This document shows, piece by piece, positions 6,417 through 63,316 of a stretch of 64,000 nt of DNA. Both the position numbers and the translations under genes were made by a program. The notes below the pieces were generated by a model. The model saw nothing but the letters and a program-made list of their open reading frames with translations, ran no database searches and was not told the origin of the DNA. How positions within the stretch are numbered: position 1 is the first letter of the stretch; each line of letters begins with the position of its first letter. Origin of the DNA: Prosthecobacter vanneervenii (GTDB taxonomy: Bacteria; Verrucomicrobiota; Verrucomicrobiia; Verrucomicrobiales; Verrucomicrobiaceae); contig NZ_JACHIG010000005.1 of assembly GCF_014203095.1 (NCBI RefSeq), forward strand, positions 1 to 64,000, given 5' to 3'.

Positions 6417-7538
6417 ATGGCAGACAATCCCCTTTCACATCGCAAATGGCGCATCGTTCACTCTGAAGCCTCCCTCGGCTGGGGCGGGCAGGAGCACCGG
6501 ATCCTGGCTGAGATGACCGGCATGCGCCGCCGAGGCAGCGAGGTCTGGCTGGTGGCTCCGGAAAACAGCCAGATCTACCGTCGTGCGGAGCTGGCAGGCG
6601 TGCCCGTGCTGGCGCAGAATTTCCGGCGGCGACTGCTGCTGCCATTTTACGTAATGCGGCTGGCCTGGTGGCTGAAGCAAAACCGCATCGAGATCGTGAA
6701 CCCCCACAGCTCGCGCGATGGCTGGATGCTCACGCTGGCGGCGCGTGTGGCCCGTGTGCCGCTGATCATCCGCAGCCGCCACTTTGACGTGCCAATTCCC
6801 AACCAGTCGCTCAGCCGGCTGATGTACAAGGAGTGGAGCCACCACATCATCACCACCAGCCCGAAGATCACGGACACGCTGTTGTCCACCTTTAACCTGG
6901 ATCCCGATGAAGTGACCACTCTGCCAACGGGCGTGGATGTGGAACGCTTCCGCCCGGATGGGCCGCGCGCCACGCTGCCGCTGCCTGCACTGCCAGCCGG
7001 CACGCCGCTGGTGGGCATGATCACCGTGATCCGATATGCCAAGGGCACGCAGATTCTGGCCGAAGCCGCAGGGCTGCTGCGTGATCAGGGGCTGCGCATC
7101 CACTGCGTGATCGCGGGAGACGGCCCCTGGCGCAGCTATCTGGAGGCAGTCCTCGAAAAGCTGGGTGTGCAGGACCTCTTCACCCTGGCGGGGCACCGCG
7201 AGGACGTGCCGGACATCATTCGTGCACTGGACATCGTGGCCATTCCCTCCTTTCACGAGGCCATCCCACAGTCCGGACTGCAATCGCTCGCTAGCGGTGT
7301 TCCGGTGGTGGCCAGCAATGTGGGAGGTATACCGAGTATCATCAAAGACGGCGAGACCGGCCGCCTCGTGCCTATGCAGGATGCTGTGGCGCTGGCCAGA
7401 GCCATCCGCGAGACGCTGGAGCAGCGTGAGAAAACGCAGGCGATGTGCGCCGAAGGCCGCAGCTTCATCATGCGTGAGCACAGCCTGGACACCATGCTGG
7501 ACCGCCTGGAGGCCATCTACCACCGCCATCTGGGATAG
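6417..7538 (+). CDS. GT4-family glycosyltransferase, tandem copy 2
   Basis: 373-residue paralogue of the preceding protein, 63 bases downstream and on the same strand. It has the same N-terminal signature (SEASLGWGGQEHR) and the TLPTGVDVERF linker. Its donor-site motif also shows E-x7-Q instead of E-x7-E (EAIPQSGLQ, near residues 280-288). It ends in LDRLEAIYHRHLG, matching LDRLDVIYRRHLE in copy 1. Duplication followed by divergence suggests consecutive additions of similar sugars in one glycan. Probably cytoplasmic or membrane-associated. Donor and acceptor are not known. Confidence 0.9.
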   Translation: MADNPLSHRKWRIVHSEASLGWGGQEHRILAEMTGMRRRGSEVWLVAPENSQIYRRAELAGVPVLAQNFRRRLLLPFYVMRLAWWLKQNRIEIVNPHSSRDGWMLTLAARVARVPLIIRSRHFDVPIPNQSLSRLMYKEWSHHIITTSPKITDTLLSTFNLDPDEVTTLPTGVDVERFRPDGPRATLPLPALPAGTPLVGMITVIRYAKGTQILAEAAGLLRDQGLRIHCVIAGDGPWRSYLEAVLEKLGVQDLFTLAGHREDVPDIIRALDIVAIPSFHEAIPQSGLQSLASGVPVVASNVGGIPSIIKDGETGRLVPMQDAVALARAIRETLEQREKTQAMCAEGRSFIMREHSLDTMLDRLEAIYHRHLG

Positions 7539-7562
7539 ATCCGGCAGCGCAAAAACAGGTCG

Positions 7563-7609
7563 GCACAACGCAATGCATGCCAAAGGCATGACAGACTTCC
7601 CGGTTGTGC
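7563..7609. repeat. Nested inverted repeats upstream of the MsbA-like gene
   Basis: GCACAAC (7563-7569) pairs with GTTGTGC (7603-7609). Inside it CATGCC (7576-7581) pairs with GGCATG (7585-7590) around a 3-base loop. There is no T-run after the structure. It sits in the 113-base gap between the GT4 gene and the exporter, about 40 bases before the ATG at 7652, so it could be a leader structure or a weak terminator. Confidence 0.4.
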
Positions 7610-7651
7610 GAATGATGCCGATGCGGCACTAGTCGGGTTCCTTCCTTTTTC

Positions 7652-9559
7652 ATGTCCAAACCTTCCGCACCACCTCCCCCGGCCAAGATCAACCTGTCCG
7701 ATCCCCAAATCCGTGCGGTGGTGGCGGGCACCCTGCAGGCCATCTGGAAGTATGTGCTGCCATACAAAGGCCGCTTCATCCTCAGCAGCGTGCTCGGCAT
7801 CCTCAGCGGCCTGTTTAATGGCGTGATGATCATCGGCTTCCAGCTCATCTTCTCGCTGGTGCTTCGGGGCAAGACCACCACGCTGGGAGAGACCATCAAG
7901 CTGCCGCTCATTGGTGAACTGAATCCGGCGGAAATTCTCGGTGTGTCCTCAGACACGCCCGTGGGCTTTACGGGGGTGGCGATCGCGTGCGCCTTCATTC
8001 CTGCACTCATTTTCTGCCGTGGCTTCCTCGGTTATCTCTCCAGCTACATGCAGACGTGGGTGACGAGCAAGGTGGTATATCAGATCCGCAATGACGCCTT
8101 CCGCAGCATCATGCGCCAGTCTCCGGGTTATTTTAACAACGCCCGCACCGGCGAGCTGATGCAGACCGTGATCAGCCAGACCGGCGTGGTGCAGCGCAAT
8201 GCCATGCAGCTTATCCAGACGGTGGCGCAGCGCCCGGTGTCCATCATCGCCATTCTGATCCCCCTCTTTGCCAGCGACTGGTTTTTCACGCTCATGTCGC
8301 TGGTCATTTTCCCGGCCTGCCTCTACCCGATTCTGCGCCTGGGCAAGCGCGTGCGCAAAGTGGGTGCCAAGGAGGAGTACGACTCCCGTGCGCTCATGTC
8401 CTCCATGCAGGAGTCCTTTGCCGGCATCCGTCTCGTCAAAGCCTACGGCCGCGAAGCGCATGAGATGGACCGCTTTGACCGCTCCAATGCCAGCATGACG
8501 CAGAATATGGTGCGCTGGGGCAAGGCGCTGGAACTCATCGGGCCGATCGTGGAAACCGTGGCCTCCTTTGGCATCGCCGCCGGGCTGGTGTATGCGTGGT
8601 CCCGCGGCGTGGAGGCGCAGACTTTCTTTGTGCTGGTGATGGCGCTGACGCAGATCTATCCGCCGCTCAAGGAGCTGAGCCGCGTGCAGCTTTTCCTGCA
8701 AAAGACCACCGTCGCCGCAGGCATGGTTTTTGAGATCCTGAACCGCCAGCCGGACATTCAGGATGCGCCGGATGCACTGGCCATCGGCCGCAGCTCGGGT
8801 GCGGTGACTTTCAAGGACATCACCTTCTACTACCGCGACAAGGACGACGTCAAAAAAGACACACCCGCAGTGCAGGACATCAACCTGCAGTTTGAGCCCG
8901 GGAAATTCTACGCCCTCGTGGGCCGCAGTGGCGCGGGCAAGAGCACGCTCTTCTCTCTCATGCTGCGCTTCTACGATCCTGATGCAGGCTCCGTACTGCT
9001 GGATGGCCGCGACATCCGCACCTGCACGCAGCACTCCGTGCGTGCCAACATCGGCATCGTGAGCCAGGACACCTTCCTCTTTCACGACACCATCCGCGAA
9101 AACATCCGCTATGGCCGTCTGGACGCCACCGAGGCGGAGATCATCGCTGCGGCGAAGAAAGCGCATGCGCATGAGTTCATCGAGCAGATCAGCAACGGCT
9201 ACGACGCCATCGTGGGCGAGGGCGGCTGCAATCTCTCCGGCGGCCAGAGGCAGCGCATCTCCATCGCCCGCGCCATCCTGCGCGACTCGCCGGTGCTGCT
9301 TCTCGATGAAGCCACCTCAGCGCTCGACACCGAGAGCGAGAAGATCATCCAGGAGGCCATCCACACGCTGTCAGCAGGCAAGACGGTGGTGGCCATCGCG
9401 CACCGTCTTTCCACCATCCTGGAAGCAGACCAGATCATCGTCATGGAGCAAGGACGCGTGGTTGACCGTGGACCGCATGCCGAACTGCTGGCCCGAAATG
9501 ACATCTACCAAAATCTCTACAACCTGCAGTACAGCTCCGACGAACGCCGTGAGAGCTGA
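7652..9559 (+). CDS. msbA: MsbA-like ABC exporter (half-transporter, fused TM and ATPase)
   Basis: 635-residue ABC exporter. A six-helix membrane domain covers about residues 35-340, followed by an ATPase domain with Walker A GRSGAGKST near 425, signature LSGGQRQR near 527, Walker B VLLLDEATSALD and the H-loop histidine in AIAHRLST. All motifs are intact, so it should be active as a homodimer. Family members flip lipid A/core or other lipids and drugs across the inner membrane. Placement just after two glycosyltransferases favours export of a glycolipid or lipopolysaccharide precursor. The msbA name is a family-level guess; multidrug exporters look alike. Confidence 0.85.
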   Translation: MSKPSAPPPPAKINLSDPQIRAVVAGTLQAIWKYVLPYKGRFILSSVLGILSGLFNGVMIIGFQLIFSLVLRGKTTTLGETIKLPLIGELNPAEILGVSSDTPVGFTGVAIACAFIPALIFCRGFLGYLSSYMQTWVTSKVVYQIRNDAFRSIMRQSPGYFNNARTGELMQTVISQTGVVQRNAMQLIQTVAQRPVSIIAILIPLFASDWFFTLMSLVIFPACLYPILRLGKRVRKVGAKEEYDSRALMSSMQESFAGIRLVKAYGREAHEMDRFDRSNASMTQNMVRWGKALELIGPIVETVASFGIAAGLVYAWSRGVEAQTFFVLVMALTQIYPPLKELSRVQLFLQKTTVAAGMVFEILNRQPDIQDAPDALAIGRSSGAVTFKDITFYYRDKDDVKKDTPAVQDINLQFEPGKFYALVGRSGAGKSTLFSLMLRFYDPDAGSVLLDGRDIRTCTQHSVRANIGIVSQDTFLFHDTIRENIRYGRLDATEAEIIAAAKKAHAHEFIEQISNGYDAIVGEGGCNLSGGQRQRISIARAILRDSPVLLLDEATSALDTESEKIIQEAIHTLSAGKTVVAIAHRLSTILEADQIIVMEQGRVVDRGPHAELLARNDIYQNLYNLQYSSDERRES

Positions 9560-9625
9560 GACAGTACGAAGCCTGTATCGGCGCGGAAATGATCGATGCA
9601 ACCGACGCTGGTGAGAGCGGCGGTT

Positions 9626-9679
9626 TGCCTCGTGGGATAAATGATTTCTTTAGTCGTGCTCATTTATCCTCATGAGGCA
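9626..9679. promoter_or_regulatory. Long inverted repeat in the leader of the cation antiporter gene
   Basis: TGCCTC (9626-9631) and the perfect 10-mer GGATAAATGA (9635-9644) are mirrored by TCATTTATCC (9660-9669) and GAGGCA (9674-9679), with 3 and 4 unpaired bases between the two stems and a 15-base loop. It lies 66 bases after the MsbA-like stop and 58 bases before the antiporter ATG. No T-run follows, so a leader structure or operator is as likely as a terminator. Confidence 0.55.
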
Positions 9680-9737
9680 CAATACCTGCATCCGCGCTTG
9701 ATCTCCCAAACCTGAACAGCGAAGGAGAAATCACCAC

Positions 9738-11432
9738 ATGATACCAGCTTTTACCATAGCCGCCGCCGCCATCCCGCCGCTCTTTGCGTTGCTGGCGCTG
9801 ATGCTTGCGGGCGTGGTGCTGGTGTCGCTGCTGCTGCTGCATTTGAGGCAGTCCCTGCTGGCGGGCTACTTCATCTGCGGCGTGCTGATCGCGAACTCCG
9901 GCATCCTGAACGTGCTGGGCGGCGGGGAGTCGCATGGGCAGGTGTCGCAGATGGCGGAGTTTGGCGTGGTGCTGCTCATGTTTACGCTGGGGCTGGAGTT
10001 CTCCCTCGGAGAGCTGCGCTTTCTGCGCCGTCTGGCCTTTGTGGGCGGCGGCTGGCAGATGGTGCTGTGCATGGCGGCTGCGGCGGCAGCCTCTCTGGCG
10101 CTGCACTCCACCACCTGGCAGGGAGCGGTGCTGCTGGCCGTGTCTCTGGCCATGAGCTCCACGGCGGTGAGCCTGAAGAGCTTTCAGGATCTCGGGCTGG
10201 AGGCCAGCCCGGGTGCGCGAATGTCGCTGGCCGTGGCGATTTTTCAGGACCTTTTCATCATCGTCTTCTTCCTCTTTCTGCCGCTGCTGCTGCCGCATGA
10301 GGGAGAATCCACCGCACTGATGCCGCGGCTGGGCTCGCTGGTGCTGCGTGGAGGTGCCTTCGTCATTCTGGCGGGCGTGGCCGCGCGCTGGGTCATCCCC
10401 TGGCTGCTGAATGCGGTGACGCGCACTCGCAGCCGCGAGCTCTTCACCCTCACGGTGATCGGCAGCTGCGTGGGCCTGGCTTTCGTGGGTGGTCTGCTAG
10501 GACTGGGGCTGGCGCTCGGTGCCTTTGTGGCCGGGCTGGCGGTCAGCGAGTCGATTTTCAAGCACCGCATTTTGGCGGATGTGATGCCGCTGAAGGATCT
10601 CTTCCTCACGCTCTTCTTTGTCTCCGTGGGTCTCATGATCGATGTGAAGGCCGCCTTTGCGCTGTGGCTGCCCATCTGCGCCATCACTGCCGTGCTGATG
10701 CTCAGCAAGGCCGTCATCATCACCTTCATCGCGCGTTACCTCGGGCTCGTGCACAAGCAGGCGCTGCTGGCAGGCATCGGCCTGTGCAGCGCGGGTGAGT
10801 TTTCCCTGGTGCTGCTGCAAAATGCAGGAAGCGCGCATCTCTGGAGCCACGACACGCAGCAGACGCTGCTGGCCGCCAGCGCGCTCTCGATGGGGCTGCT
10901 CCCTGCGCTGCTGAAGTCTGGCATCCCGCTCGGTGACTGGCTGGTGAAGCGTGGCTGGGGCCGCCGCAAGCCGGTAAAGATCGATCCCGGCAATCTGCGC
11001 CAGCGCATCAGCGGCATCACGGACCATGCCATCGTCTGCGGCCACGGCCCGGTGGGCGAAAAAGTAAACAAAGCCCTGCTCGACTCCGGCGTGCGCACGC
11101 TCGTGGTGGAGCTGAACGCCGAGACGGTGCAGCAGCTGCAGCGCCAGGGGCAGGCCGTGCTCTTTGCTGATGCCAGCCACGAGGAGACCTGGGAACTGAC
11201 CAAGCTGAAGCACGCACGCATGGTGGCCCTGACCTTTCCCGACGCCACGGTGAATGCGCAGGCGCTCGCGATGATCCGCGAGCACCGCCCGGACATCTCC
11301 GTGCTGGCCCGCGCCCGATTTAGCTCGGACGTAGAACGGCTCAAGCGCCTCGGCGCCACCCAGGTGATCAATGACGAGACCGAAGCCAGCCGCGCGATGG
11401 AGGATGCGGCGATCACACTGCAAGGAGCGTGA
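9738..11432 (+). CDS. CPA2-family K+(Na+)/H+ antiporter with TrkA-N domain (KefB/YbaL-like)
   Basis: 564-residue monovalent cation:proton antiporter of the CPA2 family. About 12 membrane segments (residues roughly 5-400) include the Glu/Asp-bearing core ALGAFVAGLAVSES. A C-terminal Rossmann RCK/TrkA-N domain follows (HAIVCGHGPVGEKV, near residue 430 on) that would bind NAD(H) or a similar ligand and gate transport. It probably effluxes K+ or Na+ in exchange for protons. A good ribosome-binding site (AGGAG at 9723-9727) supports the ATG at 9738. A large inverted repeat in the leader hints at regulated expression. No KefF/KefG-type ancillary gene is adjacent. Confidence 0.88.
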   Translation: MIPAFTIAAAAIPPLFALLALMLAGVVLVSLLLLHLRQSLLAGYFICGVLIANSGILNVLGGGESHGQVSQMAEFGVVLLMFTLGLEFSLGELRFLRRLAFVGGGWQMVLCMAAAAAASLALHSTTWQGAVLLAVSLAMSSTAVSLKSFQDLGLEASPGARMSLAVAIFQDLFIIVFFLFLPLLLPHEGESTALMPRLGSLVLRGGAFVILAGVAARWVIPWLLNAVTRTRSRELFTLTVIGSCVGLAFVGGLLGLGLALGAFVAGLAVSESIFKHRILADVMPLKDLFLTLFFVSVGLMIDVKAAFALWLPICAITAVLMLSKAVIITFIARYLGLVHKQALLAGIGLCSAGEFSLVLLQNAGSAHLWSHDTQQTLLAASALSMGLLPALLKSGIPLGDWLVKRGWGRRKPVKIDPGNLRQRISGITDHAIVCGHGPVGEKVNKALLDSGVRTLVVELNAETVQQLQRQGQAVLFADASHEETWELTKLKHARMVALTFPDATVNAQALAMIREHRPDISVLARARFSSDVERLKRLGATQVINDETEASRAMEDAAITLQGA

Positions 11433-51678: not shown

Positions 51679-54600
51679 TTACTTCGGCAGCATGGTGAGA
51701 TACTGGTCGTTCATCTGCTTCACCTTGGTGCGCATGGGCTCCAGCTGCGGCTGCAGCTTGGCCAGCTCAGCGGTGGCTTCGGCGATAATTTTTTCCTTCT
51801 CGGGGATCTCCTTGGTGGCGGCGGCGATGGAGGCCTCGGCGTCGGTTTTCTTCTTCTTGGCGCCTTCAAAGTCGGCGCTGGCTTTGGCGACCTCAGCCTT
51901 TTTGGCGTCGAGCACCTTCTGCTCGGCGTCCAGCTTGCCATGGGCGGCGGCGTAGGCCTGCTCCAGCGGAGGCAGCGCGGTCTTGGCGGCGGCAATGGCG
52001 GCATTCAGCGGCGCCACCTTTTCGGCGAGGGCTTTTTCCAGCGCGGCTGGGGCGGCCTGCTTTTCAGCGAGGGCCTTGCCCTGGGCCTCGATCTCCTTCT
52101 GAATGGCGTCGCGCTGGGCGCGCAGCGGGGCGGCTTTTTTGTCAGCATTCGCCAGCTCGCCCTTCGCCTGCTCCAGCTGCTGCTCGGCGGCTTTCACGGC
52201 GTTCTGCGCTTTGTTCACGCCCTGCGGATTGTTGGCGGCATGAGCGGTGTTCTTGGCGGAGTTGGCCTGGGTTTTGGCCGTGCGCTTGGCATTCAGCTCT
52301 CCTTCAGCAGCCTTGATGGCGGCAGCCACATCGGCGGCGGCTTTTTCGGCCTCGGCCACCTTGGCGGTGAGAGCGGCGTCTCCAGACTTGGCGGCCAGCT
52401 CTTTCTTGGCAGCGGCCAGGGCGTCTGCCGCGGTCTTCTGCTTGGTGCGCGTGTCCTTGAGGGCTTTTTCAGCCGCATCTTCGGCGGCGTTGGCAGCGGC
52501 CAGGGCGGCTTCGGCGTCCTTGTCTGCCTTGGCCTTGGCTGCCAGATCGGCAGTGGCGTCTGCATGCGCTTTTTTGGCGGCGGCCACGGCGGCTTCCTTG
52601 GGAGCGATAGCATCCTGCTTGGCCTTCACGGCCTTCTCAGGGGCGTCCAGCTTGCCAGCCACTTCGGCGAGGCTCTTCTTCTTGCTCTCGATGAGCTTGC
52701 TGATGTCTTCGGCAGCTTTCTTGGCAGCGGCGATGCCTTCGTCCTTGGCCTTCGTGGCGGCGGCGATCTCGGCCTCCTTGGTGGCGATGATGGTCTTCTG
52801 CTCGTTTACCTTGGCAGCAGCGGCGGCATCGGCATCGCGCGTGGGCTTGATGGCGGTTTCCAGACCAGCCTGCTCTCCCTGCGCCTTCTTCAGCGCGGCT
52901 TCGAGTCCAGGCTGTGCGGCGGTGGATTCGGCGATGGCTTTCTTGGAAGCCTCGATACGTGCGGCAGCAGACGTCTTGGCGGCTTCGGCGTCCTTCTTGG
53001 CTTCGGTGAAGTCGTTGAAATCCGCCTCCAGCTTGGCCAGCTTTTCCTTCTCGGCCAGCACGCCAGTGTTGAACTGGGCGGCCTTCAGCGCGGTGGGCAC
53101 TTTTTGCAGCACGCCGATCTCGTCGCTGGCGGACTTCACCGCAAACTGCGCAGCGGCGAGGTTGTTGCGGCCGGTGACGGCGTTGGACTCGGCGTTTTTG
53201 AGGCGATCAGGACCTGCTTTCACCAGCGCGGGCAGCTTGGGCAGTTCGGCCTTCTTGGCGGCGATTCCATCGGCAGTGGCTTTGATCTTGGCGTCGGTTT
53301 CAGTGATGATTTTGTCCAGATCTGCCGGAGCTGCGGGGGCGGCTCCCAGCTCGGACTTGGCCTTGGCCAGTGCGGCGGCGAGCTGGTCGGCCTTGGCCTT
53401 GGCGGGGGCAATCTTCTGCTGCTCGGCCTTGGCGGCGGCGAGCTTGCCTTCAGCGTCCTTCACCTTGGCGGTGAGGGCGGCGTCTCCGGCCTTGGCGGCC
53501 AGTTCCTTCTGAGCGGCTTCGAGTGCGGCGGTGGTGTCTGCCACGGCCTTGTCAGCGGCAGGCAGCTTGGCGGCCTCGGCAGCCACAGGCGCCAGTTCCT
53601 TCTCCTGAGCGGCGATCTTGGCGGACTTTTCCGCATGCGCCTTGATGGCGGCGGTGCGTGCAGCCTTGTCAGCATCTGCCTTGGTGCGTGCGGCCTTGAG
53701 GTCGGCCAGCGCCTTTTCATCGGCGGCGATTTCTCCAGGCAGGTTCTTGCTGCGGGCTTCGGTGGCGGCCACTTCAGCCTTCACCTTGGCCAGGGCTTCT
53801 TCGCGTGCCTTGGCATCGGCCTCGGCGGCCTGTGCGGCGGTTTTCAGAGAGGGGAGCTTGGCGGTCAGCTCAGCCAGTCGCTGCTCCGTCTGCACGATGC
53901 GCTGCGCGATCAGCGAGGGATTGCTGCTAAGCTGCCCGGCCTCCGTGAGCGCAGGGGTGCCGAGGTTCCAGAGCTTGATCTCACCGCGCCAGTTGGCAGA
54001 GATGGCGGACTTGGAGTCAAAGAGCGCCACCACCTTGGTCACGAGGTCGCCCTGGTTCGGGGCTTCGGCCAGCTTGTTGCCATTGATGTCCCAGACGCGC
54101 ACGAGGCCGTCGTTGCCAGAAGAGACGAGCTTGCCGTCCGGAGTGAAGGACACGGACTGCACGCCGCCGTTGTGCGCGGTCCAGTTTTTCACCTGCTTGC
54201 CCTCGCTCATCTCCCAGGTGATGATGGTGCCGTCGGTGGCGCATGAGGCGAGGATGTTGGAATCCGCGCGCCAGGCCACGTCCACGCAGGAGGCCTTGTG
54301 CTGGCCCAGGATGTAGAATTCGCCGCCATTGGCCGCCTCCCACACGTTCACGTTGCCATTGCGGTCACTGGTGGCCAGCAGCACGCCATCAGGGCTGAAG
54401 GCGGTGCTCATGACCCACTCGGTGTGCTTGTTGATGACGTACTCCTCTTCGCCGGTGGCGGTGTCGTAGGCCTTCACCTTCTTGGACGGGCTGCCGATGA
54501 CGATCAGCTTGTGGTCCGGGCTGATGTCCGCAGACATCACCTGATCAAACTCCTTGCCCACTTCGGTGATGCGCTTGCCGGTCTTCACGTCCCACACAAT

Positions 54601-55305
54601 GGCGTGGCCGTTTTTGCCGGCACGGCCGCCACCCATCACGAGCAGGGAGCCATTGCGGCTGAAGCGCAGGCTGTGCGCGTAGCCTTCCGTGTAGGGGAAG
54701 ATGCCCACGAGCTGCTTGGTATCGGTGTCGTAAAGCAGGATCTGCTTGGGCGCAGCCAATGCCATCAGGGATGTCCATGGGCTGGCGGCCATGGCGGTGA
54801 TGGCCGTGGTGTGCTGCGTGACGATGACGGGCTCCAGCAGCACGTGCTCCGGCTTGGCGATGGGGCCTTCGGGCTTGCCGCCGGTGACGGCCACAGCCAT
54901 GTCCACCTTGGGCTTGCTGGATTTTTTGGCGATGCTCGACTTCGTATCCAGGATGCCGCCTTTGATCCATGCGGCGAGGAGGTCGAGATCCTTCTGGCCC
55001 AGCGGCGCGCCTTCCGGCGGCATGAAGGGCTCTTCTTTCTTGGCGCAGGTGGTCCAGAGACGGCTGCTGTCGGAGTTTCCGGCATCCACCACGGAGCCGC
55101 CACCGCCGCCGGCCATCAGCGCGGCAAAGCTCGTCAGGTCCAGATCGCCCTTCTTCTTATCAGGGTTATGGCAGGAGAAGCATTTGTTCTCCAGCAGCGG
55201 GCGGATGTGGTCCTGATACGTGATCTTCTCGCCAGAATCCTGGGCACGAAGAGACACGGCGGCGAGGGCCGCGCATGTCAGCGAAAGGGTGGTTTTAGGC
55301 AGCAT
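51679..55305 (-). CDS. PVC-type cytochrome, WD40 and coiled-coil protein
   Basis: 1208 residues, secreted (SLTCAALAAVSLRAQDSG). A single-haem cytochrome-like domain with CFSCH (KCFSCHNPDKKKGDLDL) is followed by a PPEGAPLGQKDLDLLAAW-type segment. WD40-like repeats follow (about 150-480). The last 700 or so residues are Ala/Lys/Glu-rich coiled coil with an internal duplication: E-L-A-A-K-x-G-D-A-A-L-T-A-K-V occurs twice, about 1.1 kb apart. Cytochrome plus WD40 fusions are typical of Planctomycetes/Verrucomicrobia. The long coil may span the periplasm or form a stalk. The function is not known. High GC and no stops create long antisense frames that are not real genes. Confidence 0.88.
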   Translation of the reverse strand: MLPKTTLSLTCAALAAVSLRAQDSGEKITYQDHIRPLLENKCFSCHNPDKKKGDLDLTSFAALMAGGGGGSVVDAGNSDSSRLWTTCAKKEEPFMPPEGAPLGQKDLDLLAAWIKGGILDTKSSIAKKSSKPKVDMAVAVTGGKPEGPIAKPEHVLLEPVIVTQHTTAITAMAASPWTSLMALAAPKQILLYDTDTKQLVGIFPYTEGYAHSLRFSRNGSLLVMGGGRAGKNGHAIVWDVKTGKRITEVGKEFDQVMSADISPDHKLIVIGSPSKKVKAYDTATGEEEYVINKHTEWVMSTAFSPDGVLLATSDRNGNVNVWEAANGGEFYILGQHKASCVDVAWRADSNILASCATDGTIITWEMSEGKQVKNWTAHNGGVQSVSFTPDGKLVSSGNDGLVRVWDINGNKLAEAPNQGDLVTKVVALFDSKSAISANWRGEIKLWNLGTPALTEAGQLSSNPSLIAQRIVQTEQRLAELTAKLPSLKTAAQAAEADAKAREEALAKVKAEVAATEARSKNLPGEIAADEKALADLKAARTKADADKAARTAAIKAHAEKSAKIAAQEKELAPVAAEAAKLPAADKAVADTTAALEAAQKELAAKAGDAALTAKVKDAEGKLAAAKAEQQKIAPAKAKADQLAAALAKAKSELGAAPAAPADLDKIITETDAKIKATADGIAAKKAELPKLPALVKAGPDRLKNAESNAVTGRNNLAAAQFAVKSASDEIGVLQKVPTALKAAQFNTGVLAEKEKLAKLEADFNDFTEAKKDAEAAKTSAAARIEASKKAIAESTAAQPGLEAALKKAQGEQAGLETAIKPTRDADAAAAAKVNEQKTIIATKEAEIAAATKAKDEGIAAAKKAAEDISKLIESKKKSLAEVAGKLDAPEKAVKAKQDAIAPKEAAVAAAKKAHADATADLAAKAKADKDAEAALAAANAAEDAAEKALKDTRTKQKTAADALAAAKKELAAKSGDAALTAKVAEAEKAAADVAAAIKAAEGELNAKRTAKTQANSAKNTAHAANNPQGVNKAQNAVKAAEQQLEQAKGELANADKKAAPLRAQRDAIQKEIEAQGKALAEKQAAPAALEKALAEKVAPLNAAIAAAKTALPPLEQAYAAAHGKLDAEQKVLDAKKAEVAKASADFEGAKKKKTDAEASIAAATKEIPEKEKIIAEATAELAKLQPQLEPMRTKVKQMNDQYLTMLPK

Positions 55306-56016: not shown

Positions 56017-57198
56017 TTACTTGCCCAGCTTGTAGATCCCTCCGTTCCAGTCGAGCACGAGCATTTCTCCGGCGGCATTGGCGCAGAAGGCGGTCGGCTT
56101 GACCAGGATGGTGGGCTTCTTCTTGGGATCAGCGGCAGGGGTCTGCGGACTGGTGTAGAGCAGCTCATTGCTCTGCTCCTTGCCGCTGTCGTCGGTCTTG
56201 AGCGCCCAGACCTTTCCGAGCACGAAGTCGCCATACACGTATTTGCCCTGGAGCTCTGGCAGTGACTTGCCGGTATAGACAATGCCGCCGGTGATGCTGA
56301 GTCCGTCGGCGTGGGTGTAGGAGTGGATGGGCTCGATGAACTTGGCGTCGGCGGGCGGGGTGTCGGTCATCAGCGGGAAGGCGGCGGGGCCTTCACGGAA
56401 GTTCCAGCCGTAGTTGCCGCCGTTGGTGATCCAGTTGATCTCCTCATAGATGTCCTGGCCCACGTCGGCGCACCAGAGGTGGCCCTTTGCATCAAAGCTC
56501 AGGCCCCAGGGATTGCGGATGCCATTGGCATAGATCTGCGGCAGGGCATTCACGCCGCTGGCGTAGGGGTTGTCGGCAGGAATGCCGTAGGCCTTGGAGT
56601 AGTCGCGGCTGTCCACGTCGATGCGCAGGATCTTGCCGTAGAGCGTGGCATTGAGCTGAGACATCTTGAGCTCGCCGTTGCGCTTGGAGTTGTCGCCCAC
56701 GCCGATGTAGAGGAAGCCATCCGGGCCGAAGACGATGTTGCCGCCGTGGTGGTTCCAGTTCACCAGCGGGATCTCCAGCAGGGAGCGCTCGGTGCTTTCA
56801 TCGGCCTTGTCGCCATTGGCCTTCATCTCGGTGATGACGAGGCGCTTGGGTTTCTGCAGTGTGTAGCAGAGGTAGAAGAGACCGTTGTCCTTGAACTTCG
56901 GATGGAAGGCCAGGCCGTTGAGCCCTTCTTCAAACAGGCCGTCCTTGGCCTCCATCCCACGCGGGGAGAGATCGAGGAAGGTCTTGGCCTCGCTGCCGGC
57001 CTCGTCCTTCGGCAGGATCAAAATCTGCCCGCGCTGCAGCGCCAGAAACTCACGGCCGCTGCCGTCTTCAGGCACCACCACCGCGATGGGGCGCTCCGTT
57101 TTGAGCTTTTCATAAACACGTGTCAGCTTGTGGGTATCGGCCGCCAGAGCAGCAGAGCCAGCAGCGACGAGGAGGGCAAGGGAGAGCAGGGAGCGCAT
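56017..57198 (-). CDS. PQQ-dependent glucose/sorbosone dehydrogenase-like protein
   Basis: 393 residues with a signal peptide (LLSLALLVAAGSAALAAD) and a six-bladed beta-propeller (GSDH fold). Typical elements: GLNGLAFHPKFKDNGLFYLCYT, NHHGGNIVFGPDGFLYIGVGDN, GIRNPWGLSFDAKGHLWCADVGQD and EINWITNGGNYGWNFREG. Soluble PQQ-dependent aldose/sorbosone dehydrogenase families bind Ca2+ and PQQ at the top of the propeller. Whether all PQQ ligands are present cannot be judged by eye. Periplasmic. The only neighbour gene is the toxin-antitoxin pair upstream. Confidence 0.85.
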   Translation of the reverse strand: MRSLLSLALLVAAGSAALAADTHKLTRVYEKLKTERPIAVVVPEDGSGREFLALQRGQILILPKDEAGSEAKTFLDLSPRGMEAKDGLFEEGLNGLAFHPKFKDNGLFYLCYTLQKPKRLVITEMKANGDKADESTERSLLEIPLVNWNHHGGNIVFGPDGFLYIGVGDNSKRNGELKMSQLNATLYGKILRIDVDSRDYSKAYGIPADNPYASGVNALPQIYANGIRNPWGLSFDAKGHLWCADVGQDIYEEINWITNGGNYGWNFREGPAAFPLMTDTPPADAKFIEPIHSYTHADGLSITGGIVYTGKSLPELQGKYVYGDFVLGKVWALKTDDSGKEQSNELLYTSPQTPAADPKKKPTILVKPTAFCANAAGEMLVLDWNGGIYKLGK

Positions 57199-60583: not shown

Positions 60584-63316
60584 ATGTTCCGTGTGTGCAG
60601 TCTCTTCACGCCACTCGCATTCGCCTCCGTCTTTTGCGCCGAGCCCGTGGCAATGACGACGCGCGAGTTCAAACTCGATTTCGACCTCCGCGCCATGAGC
60701 CGCAGTCTGGCGGCGAGTCAGCCAGCTGCCGATCCCCTTGCCGATGGATCAGATCCATCTTCTGCGGCTGCAAAGGATCCCTTCATCCCTGCCAGCCAAC
60801 CCGGGCTGCCGCTCAAACCGCCGCCCCTCCTGACTTCCCAGAATGTTTTATCTCAAATGGGCATCAGCTTTCCGCCAGGTGCCACAGCATTCTATGACAG
60901 CTGCACCAGAACTCTGCGTGTGCACAACACGCCCGAGATGCTCCACCTCATCCAGGTGCTGGCGGATTCCGCAGGAGAAAACTTCCCCCGCGACGTCGTA
61001 TACTCGCTCACGGTCATCGAGGGCCCGGGAGAAATCATCCGACGGATCAATGAAACCGCCGCACACAAAGCAGATTCTGGCGCAGAGCTCGGCTCGCTGC
61101 TGGCACAGGCGCAGCAGCCCGGCTCCAAAGCACGTGTGATCAGCGATGACTGGATGCAGATCCAGTCCGGCACACGTGCCACATCCACGTCCGCACAAGA
61201 GCGCATCCACACCCTGGGACTGAGCTTTGATGCCAGGAGCCACGCCACATTGAAACGGGAGATGCGTCCGCTCGGAATGCAGCTTGAAATAGAACCCCTC
61301 ATTCACTCTGGCGACACCGCGCTTAAAACCGCCCTCGATTCCACCCTGAGACTCCAGCTGACTCTGGCACCGCCGCAGCTGAGGCCAGTCAGCATCACCG
61401 ATCCTGGCACCGGCAATGCCGCCGAATATTCCACGACCAGCTTTTCCCAGGCGGAGTTTACCACGACAATCTCCAGCGCCAATGGCAGCACCAAGTTGAT
61501 CGGCGTCACTGCTCCATGTGGGCAGGCAGAGGCCCCGCAAGATCTGCTGTGGGCCGTCTTTCTCACCACCACGATTCATGCGCAGGAGCCCGTGCCGGCG
61601 GCTCCGCTGCAGTCGCCACCAATCCCCAAAAACACCCCAAAAGGTCTGCAGGCCGCCTCCCTCCGTGTGCCAGATGGAGTCTTCGTGAATGAATGGGGAG
61701 AGCCCGCTGAGCCGCTGCAAAAGTGGCTGGAGGCAAAAGGAATCCCCGCCATCCAGGGTGCCAGCGCGGCGCAGCAAGACGGCGTGCTGCATCTCATTAA
61801 TACTCCAGACAACATCGAACGTATTGTCATGCTCGTAGATGAAGCGCTGGAAGCGGCCCCCAAATCCATCGCCTGCACACTCCACACAGTGCAGGCTCCT
61901 GCAGCCTTCTTGCGCCATCTCGCCCACGCCTCTGCAGCAGCCAGCGACCATGCTGGGATGTGGGCCCAGGTGGAGGCCGCTGTGGCACGCGGCGAAGGGA
62001 GATTCATCAATTCCGCTTTCATCGAGACTCCATCCGCAGTCCGTGCCAAACACAGCAGCAGCAGCGAACTCCTTTTCGTGCAGGAGTTTGGCCTGGATGC
62101 CAAAGGCCGCTCCATTCCCGGCATCGCCTATCGCGATGTCGGCTCCGTTTTTGAGATTGAGCCCGAGCTGCGGGGAGATGGCCGCACACTCGATGTCATC
62201 CTTTCCTGCATGCTTCATCCCGCCCCGCCAGCCATGCGCCGCGAGACCTTTCGCGATCCCGCCTCCGGGCTGCGTTTTGACCTCCCCGTGCCGGATTTTC
62301 ATGCCACGCAAACCACCACCAAACTCGTGATGACTGCGGGCGGCACCCGGCTGCTGAGCCTGCACCCTCCCACCGGACGCGATGCCGAGGGCATGCTGTG
62401 GGCCACATTTCTGAAGTGCGATGTGGTCACGCAGGTAAAGCCGCGCAAAAGCAACCCGCGCATTGCAGCGCCCACCAGACCACTCGATCCCAAATCCTGG
62501 CACACACAGAGCTACAAAGCCCCGCCTGATTTCCTCTCCTCCGCCAACGTAGAAGGCAAGAAAAAGCCCACCGCACAGTCTGTGCTCGAAGCTGCCGGAA
62601 TTCGCTTTCCAAGAGGAGCCACAGCCATTTTCGATCCCGCACACGCTCTTTTGATCGTGCACAGCACTCAGGAAAACCTCGACCTCGTGGAAGCCTATGT
62701 GACAGGCCTCGATGACAGCCGCAGTCCCAGCACCGTGGCCTACACCGCCCAGATCTTTCAGGGCCCGGGCCCGCTGCTGCGCCAGCTCACCGCCCAGGCC
62801 GCAGTCAAATGCGATCAGCGTGCTGAGCTGGATGCCCTGCTGGCTGCGGTGCAGTCCGGCACCGTGCAGGCGCTCGACACAGCGCGCATCGAGACCCGGT
62901 TCGGCACCCAGGCCACTACCACCCAGGCGCGTGAGCACACCTCCCTGAGCACTGTGAAAGTGAATGACAAAGGTGTGACGGAGTTTGACCAGGATATCAG
63001 GCAGGTCGGTCTCACCCTCTCAATCGAGCCCAAACGACGGGCCGACAATCGTGCGATCGAATCCACCCTCTCGTTAGAATTTCACACCGCCGAGCCCAAA
63101 GAGCATCGCGAGCAGATCATCGACTCCCAAGACCATAAACTGGAGCTGCCTCTCACAGATTACCAGGTCGTCCATCTCAGCACAGGACCCACCATGCCAA
63201 GCGGCACCGCACACCTCGTCGGCCTCTGGAAGCCCGTGGGAAAGCCCGAATTTGAAGAACAAGACATCCTGCAGATGCTTTTCATCACCTGCGATCATCT
63301 GTGGGTGGAGCCTTGA
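60584..63316 (+). CDS. Secreted protein with three tandem secretin-like modules
   Basis: 910 residues, signal peptide MFRVCSLFTPLAFASVFCAEP. Three similar modules follow, at about residues 80-300, 350-620 and 640-905. Each opens with a GI-x-FP-x-GA-x-A-(F/I)-(Y/F)-D pattern and an NTPE/TQEN-type segment with hydrophobic flanks. A YSLTVIEGPGEIIRRI- or TAQIFQGPGPLLRQL-type strand pair follows, then a barrel-like region ending in strings such as LEIEPLIHSGDTALKTALDSTLRLQL. The first and third modules align better with each other than with the second. Such units resemble the N-domain plus secretin-barrel repeats of Verrucomicrobia outer-membrane proteins. The function is unknown. Confidence 0.75.
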   Translation: MFRVCSLFTPLAFASVFCAEPVAMTTREFKLDFDLRAMSRSLAASQPAADPLADGSDPSSAAAKDPFIPASQPGLPLKPPPLLTSQNVLSQMGISFPPGATAFYDSCTRTLRVHNTPEMLHLIQVLADSAGENFPRDVVYSLTVIEGPGEIIRRINETAAHKADSGAELGSLLAQAQQPGSKARVISDDWMQIQSGTRATSTSAQERIHTLGLSFDARSHATLKREMRPLGMQLEIEPLIHSGDTALKTALDSTLRLQLTLAPPQLRPVSITDPGTGNAAEYSTTSFSQAEFTTTISSANGSTKLIGVTAPCGQAEAPQDLLWAVFLTTTIHAQEPVPAAPLQSPPIPKNTPKGLQAASLRVPDGVFVNEWGEPAEPLQKWLEAKGIPAIQGASAAQQDGVLHLINTPDNIERIVMLVDEALEAAPKSIACTLHTVQAPAAFLRHLAHASAAASDHAGMWAQVEAAVARGEGRFINSAFIETPSAVRAKHSSSSELLFVQEFGLDAKGRSIPGIAYRDVGSVFEIEPELRGDGRTLDVILSCMLHPAPPAMRRETFRDPASGLRFDLPVPDFHATQTTTKLVMTAGGTRLLSLHPPTGRDAEGMLWATFLKCDVVTQVKPRKSNPRIAAPTRPLDPKSWHTQSYKAPPDFLSSANVEGKKKPTAQSVLEAAGIRFPRGATAIFDPAHALLIVHSTQENLDLVEAYVTGLDDSRSPSTVAYTAQIFQGPGPLLRQLTAQAAVKCDQRAELDALLAAVQSGTVQALDTARIETRFGTQATTTQAREHTSLSTVKVNDKGVTEFDQDIRQVGLTLSIEPKRRADNRAIESTLSLEFHTAEPKEHREQIIDSQDHKLELPLTDYQVVHLSTGPTMPSGTAHLVGLWKPVGKPEFEEQDILQMLFITCDHLWVEP

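Follow-up and report, generated by a model that had tools for sequence, protein, structure and literature searches.

Results

A gene for a protein with three tandem modules

The window, by which we mean the whole 64,000-nucleotide stretch of Prosthecobacter vanneervenii DNA that was analysed, carries an intact ORF at 60584-63316 on the + strand, with an ATG start and a stop codon at 63314-63316, that encodes a 910-aa protein composed of three secretin-like modules. The first 19 residues (60584-60640; MFRVCSLFTPLAFASVFCA|E) read as a likely signal peptide. No convincing lipobox was seen on reading the leader, and equivalent hydrophobic leaders open the sequences of relatives. Export of the protein is likely on these grounds, in agreement with its first-pass annotation as secreted.

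The gene is overlapped by an antisense ORF of 696 aa (60848-62938, -). Orthologs of the + strand product are 61-69% identical to it, and comparison with two of them gave dN/dS values of 0.25 and 0.35; hence, the + strand is the conserved reading. Homology and dN/dS both favour the + strand, and we rejected the antisense ORF as a true gene; it most likely results from high G+C coding. For the individual modules, dN/dS ranges from 0.15 to 0.35, values that indicate purifying selection on the triple gene.

The neighbouring genes encode a Mala_s_1-like propeller and carA. Pilus genes are not adjacent: a pilM-like/Amuc_1099-1100-like operon lies ~10 kb from other copies of the gene, and not at the copy in the window. 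For the isolated copies (that in the window, L023 and L024), the adjacent genes are unrelated and no conserved neighbour names a pathway. Elsewhere in the window, a 1208-aa protein (51679-55305, -) combines a planctomycete-type cytochrome domain, WD40 repeats and a long Ala/Lys/Glu-rich tail, and a GSDH gene (56017-57198) adjoins it.

The three modules are homologous

The modules span residues ~24-336, ~356-617 and ~637-910, with ~255 homologous residues in each. Within this single protein, Smith-Waterman scores for the three module pairs were 206-279, as compared with 56-63 for the best of 500 shuffles (Z 31, 43 and 34), and BLASTP E values between modules were 1e-19, 4e-30 and 2e-23. Module profiles drawn from 23 relatives aligned end to end by hhalign, with E values of 8.5e-54, 1.1e-63 and 1.8e-59. 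The proposal of three tandem homologous units is therefore borne out, and the similarity among them is far from the non-significant level that would have counted against it. The GI-x-FP-x-GA opening ascribed to every unit is exact in the first (GISFPPGA) and third (GIRFPRGA) but degenerate in the second (GIPAIQGA).

Each module is modelled as a KH-like N-domain, of the kind found as secretin N1/N2, followed by a secretin-domain fold. Module 1 begins with a lead strand, MTTREFKLDFDL, that aligns with TRSYRVPPDFL of PilQ, and a low-confidence linker (together 60653-60832, residues 24-83; pLDDT <50 at residues 41-81). These precede its N-domain (60833-60988, residues 84-135; profile match E 1e-20) and its secretin-like domain (60992-61591, residues 137-336; E 1e-65). 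In module 2, the lead strand and N-domain occupy 61649-61861 (residues 356-426; profile match at 377-426, E 1e-19) and the secretin-like domain 61862-62434 (residues 427-617; E 3e-74). In module 3, the lead strand and KH-like N-domain lie at 62492-62716 (residues 637-711; profile match at 662-711, E 5e-22) and the secretin-like domain at 62729-63313 (residues 716-910; E 2e-77). All of these features are on the + strand.

The modules are related to secretins

Secretins are outer-membrane pores of type II and type III secretion, type IV pili and filamentous phages, with one secretin domain per chain. Pfam Secretin (PF00263) matched the 910-aa protein with an E value of 3e-4 and 20.8 bits, below the cut-off of 27.5, the best stretch being residues 756-852; two paralogs just pass the cut-off, with 27.9 and 28.0 bits. 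Pfam Secretin_N reached only E 0.05, with its match in the module 3 N-domain, and the Pfam scan detected neither TPR nor STN/N0 domains in the window protein. Of the two profile comparisons proposed at first pass, that with Secretin gave a sub-threshold match and that with STN/N0 none in the Pfam scan. NCBIfam NF042912, the model for type IV pilus secretins of the Amuc_1098 family, matched three stretches (E 4.8e-30, 104.3 bits). This score is below the equivalog cut-off of 750, which the true member encoded in the same genome exceeds with 980.6.

Comparison of the full protein with the sequences of solved structures gave chance matches only. An AlphaFold2 model of module 3, built from an alignment of 40 modules from the window and relatives, has a mean pLDDT of 91.4. 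The first 38 Foldseek matches of this model in the PDB were secretins or secretin complexes, led by InvG (E 5.8e-9), and secretins also filled the top rows of a structural alignment search, with Z mostly 11-13.7. Superposition on RcpA gave 3.1 A over 131 residues for the secretin part, and superposition on XcpQ N012 gave 2.3 A over 65 residues (Z 7.5) for the N-domain. For the whole module, rmsd values against secretins are large, mostly 8-12 A; since each part superposes well alone and the whole poorly, the angle of the N-domain is predicted to differ. This model argues against globular modules unrelated to secretins, and the label "secretin-like" is upheld by the fold, the Pfam match, the three Amuc_1098 stretches and a close alignment with the PilQ of the same genome.

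The predicted module fold, a KH-like N-domain and then a secretin domain, is that of the secretin superfamily (PF00263 with PF03958; GspD, PilQ, InvG, pIV, RcpA). The window protein departs from the superfamily in having three secretin domains in one chain, and in apparently not keeping the pore-forming features. With the Amuc_1098 family it shares the domain order, the N-domain motifs GI-FP-GASA-Y and L-V-NT--NL, and the secretin-domain motifs TKSGTRAT and VG--LE-EPTVGADG. Unlike that family, it has three modules rather than one, lacks the TPR region and N0, has a short, hydrophilic hairpin in its modules, and lacks the PILGDLPIVGRLF motif. The triple protein is built from secretin-superfamily parts, yet fails several features that define secretins or the Amuc_1098 family.

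PilQ is the closest relative of the modules

The host genome has eight strong Secretin genes. When the module profile was compared with them by hhalign, the match probability was 99.7% for the genome's Amuc_1098-type PilQ (89 columns, in the N-domain) and 99.1% for a second PilQ-like protein (200 columns). No significant match was obtained with the remaining six (at most 5.4%), and the modules therefore come from the PilQ-type branch. The PilQ secretin-domain motifs TKSGTRATMEVTREF, FEMRQTGVRLEAEPTVGADGNTIELTLAPE and VRKVTTGVSIWDGQT have module counterparts of the form ETKSGTRATTxxxxEH, FEMRxVGLxLELEPTVGADGxTxE and TTKxTTGITxPDGT, in which the PilQ-type TKSGTRAT and VGxxLExEPTVGADG are conserved. 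By sequence, the closest relative of the modules is the genome's own Amuc_1098-type PilQ.

One paralog (L022:3868-7170) lies ~10 kb from PilQ and keeps an N0/STN domain; this paralog and its close relatives show 46-50% identity with PilQ across 217-249 residues, N0 and N1 included. Nine genomes of the genus have family members at a distance of ~10-11 kb from PilQ, in one case only a fragment. The simplest source of the modules would be a partial PilQ duplication that included the N1-type and secretin domains and, in one paralog, also N0. At L022, the genes that separate the triple gene from the PilQ operon (7257-10527, -) encode a squalene-cyclase-like secreted protein, an unknown protein and a periplasmic protein of sugar-binding type, and they are conserved in place across the genus. 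We considered the squalene-cyclase-like and periplasmic-binding-protein genes as a pathway clue and rejected them, since simple shared synteny fits.

Pore-forming features appear to be missing from the modules

We compared the segment between the last core strands, equivalent to the membrane-spanning hairpin, in 40 modules and in the secretins of the genome. In the modules it is ~41 residues long, with a mean GRAVY of -0.40 and 18% DEKR. In PilQ-type proteins it is 64-73 residues long and rich in hydrophobic and small residues, with a GRAVY of about +0.3 (for PilQ itself, +0.36 and 9% DEKR). Hydropathy is a proxy, and is suggestive rather than proof, because the segment also has a negative GRAVY in two other genuine secretins of this genome. 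The C-terminal hallmark of the type PxLGDxPxxGxLF (PILGDLPIVGRLF of PilQ) is present in the genome's PilQ proteins and in 0/40 modules, by a strict pattern that misses some true secretins plainly carrying a variant; the modules instead carry a shorter stretch of the type SLYKPTGKPEFEKEDILQAIFIT. Since the hairpin segment is short and hydrophilic and the hallmark is missing, an outer-membrane pore formed by the triple protein appears unlikely. The suggestion of an outer-membrane assembly is thus not supported, while a periplasmic assembly, offered with it, is possible.

The triple form probably arose once and is patchily distributed

The search for the same architecture in relatives was successful: the triple form is carried by about 16 of the 35 sampled genomes of the genus, with several copies per genome, and by G108, a genome from a different genus. 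Versions with one or two modules are found in other genera, and a different family of the same order has single-module ORFs. Matches outside the order were mostly to the N-domain within secretin-sized ORFs. In a maximum-likelihood tree of 79 modules, first, second and third modules each form one group (supports 99/86, 95/93 and 93/87), the window gene clusters with L003 and L004, and two-module proteins form a separate group. Because each module position is one group, a single triplication before the family spread into paralogs within the genus is most likely.

Two entries need separate comment. A contig labelled as an Akkermansia muciniphila MAG (CAMCWM010000357.1) has a triple gene that falls within the host genus, and the label or binning of this contig looks wrong. 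In L034, a relative is split into overlapping ORFs of 760 and 180 aa in different frames (7995-10274 and 10199-10738, +), through either an assembly error or a real frameshift.

Related modules occur in other proteins

Two secretin-like modules, each an N-domain with a secretin-like region, are fused to a BlaR1-type M56 metallopeptidase (HEAEH) in a protein encoded on contig C12 of the host genome (L025:1911-4550, -). A BlaI/Penicillinase_R gene lies directly upstream (L025:4547-4993, -). A further BlaR1-type M56 metallopeptidase with two such modules is encoded at L052:3411-6026 (+), and about a dozen genomes of the genus, together with one from a different genus, have the fusion. In these BlaR1/M56 sensor proteins, the related modules make up the extracytoplasmic part. 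The fusions are membrane-anchored protease/sensors beside a repressor gene, whereas the window protein has no M56 domain. A non-exhaustive literature search for BlaR1/M56 proteins with secretin domains returned nothing relevant.

Very long ORFs (~1900-3260 aa; L044:3445-13227, +, L045, L046 and L047:484-9300, -) contain one to three N-domains of the family. That in L044 also matches TPR and STN, and no secretin domain was detected in any of the four.

Arrangement of the modules in the full chain

An AlphaFold2 model of the full chain, made from an alignment of only 14 sequences, has a pLDDT of 78 and a pTM of 0.73. Because each folded module is less than a third of the chain, this pTM suggests that relative placement is predicted with some confidence and that the three modules hold a defined mutual arrangement. 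Structural searches with it returned secretins first and then, weakly, monomeric beta-barrels (OmpG, CymA, FadL, TodX and EspP). The barrel matches span two or three modules (e.g. residues 424-872 and 139-582), with Z 3-4.5 and rmsd mostly 7-15 A; in Foldseek their E values were 0.002-0.02, with low probability. We rejected them as standalone evidence because they are too weak.

Discussion

What might a secretin fold do in triplicate and away from its usual pore? We tentatively favour a PilQ-derived, exported, soluble periplasmic pseudo-secretin that forms no pore, keeps secretin-type packing and acts as a scaffold or partner; this leads the readings considered here, though in our judgement at slightly less than even odds. 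Part of an Amuc_1098-type PilQ, comprising the N1-type and secretin domains, would have been duplicated; the membrane-spanning hairpin and C-terminal secretin motif would have disappeared from the copy, and the copy would have been triplicated once in tandem. The exported product would be soluble in the periplasm, where its modules may pack edge to edge like ring subunits, giving either an arc of three pre-assembled subunits or a closed unit of three modules. Either could serve as a scaffold or binding partner that forms no pore, with PilQ and the pilus apparatus as the most plausible setting. The PilQ of A. muciniphila, which belongs to the Amuc_1098 family, has been described as the most abundant outer-membrane protein there (PMC4960237). 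Several observations weigh against parts of this proposal. Several copies per genome and a patchy presence argue against a core pilus part. The copy in the window is not adjacent to pilus genes, and the PilQ linkage that holds for other copies may reflect no more than the shared ancestry of one locus. In addition, hydropathy alone does not exclude membrane insertion.

The main rival, which we regard as somewhat unlikely, is that these are generic periplasmic binding or sensing modules that recognise ligands or envelope components, with neither ring-type packing nor a link to pili. The pair of related modules that makes up the outer part of BlaR1/M56 proteins beside a BlaI-type repressor gene is consistent with this, as are the related N-domains that very long proteins combine with STN and TPR, the existence of one-, two- and three-module versions, and the isolated copies with unrelated neighbours. 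However, the N-domains and secretin domains of solved relatives pack subunit to subunit, and the pTM of the full-chain model suggests contact between modules.

A bolder version, in our judgement unlikely, is a single-chain secretin, in which the modules close up or form a pre-fused three-subunit arc to give a soluble, pore-less periplasmic ring or barrel. Slightly less probable again is a closed barrel made by one chain, whose three secretin domains would complete a small pseudo-threefold barrel or ring. The full-chain pTM and the beta-barrel matches across two or three modules are in line with such closure. Nonetheless, any curved sheet can yield matches of that quality, the model draws on few sequences, and AlphaFold2 can close repeats artificially.

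We consider a true outer-membrane channel with three subunits per chain quite improbable. The predicted secretin fold would allow it, and a ring of 12 or 15 subunits could conveniently be made from, for example, four or five such three-module chains, but the short, charged hairpin segment and the C-terminal motif missing from 40/40 modules argue against it. Least probable of all is a relict or drifting gene family with no function: patchy distribution and the split relative in L034 fit that view, but most carrier genomes have long intact ORFs and dN/dS is low in every module.

We found no description of tandem secretin domains in the literature searched, which was not exhaustive. If the modules do form a single-chain secretin, it would be, to our knowledge, the first tandem-fused secretin-fold assembly freed from the outer membrane, and the related BlaR1-type sensor modules may read the state of that assembly. 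The M56/BlaI link leads to a testable idea, namely envelope or pilus surveillance. Fixed three-module fusions are also a natural tool for studies of secretin subunit packing. More generally, a triplicated and seemingly membrane-freed secretin family would be a case of the fold put to use away from pores: a pilus-channel domain, in shortened form, has apparently been taken over as three consecutive copies for a new role in the cell envelope.
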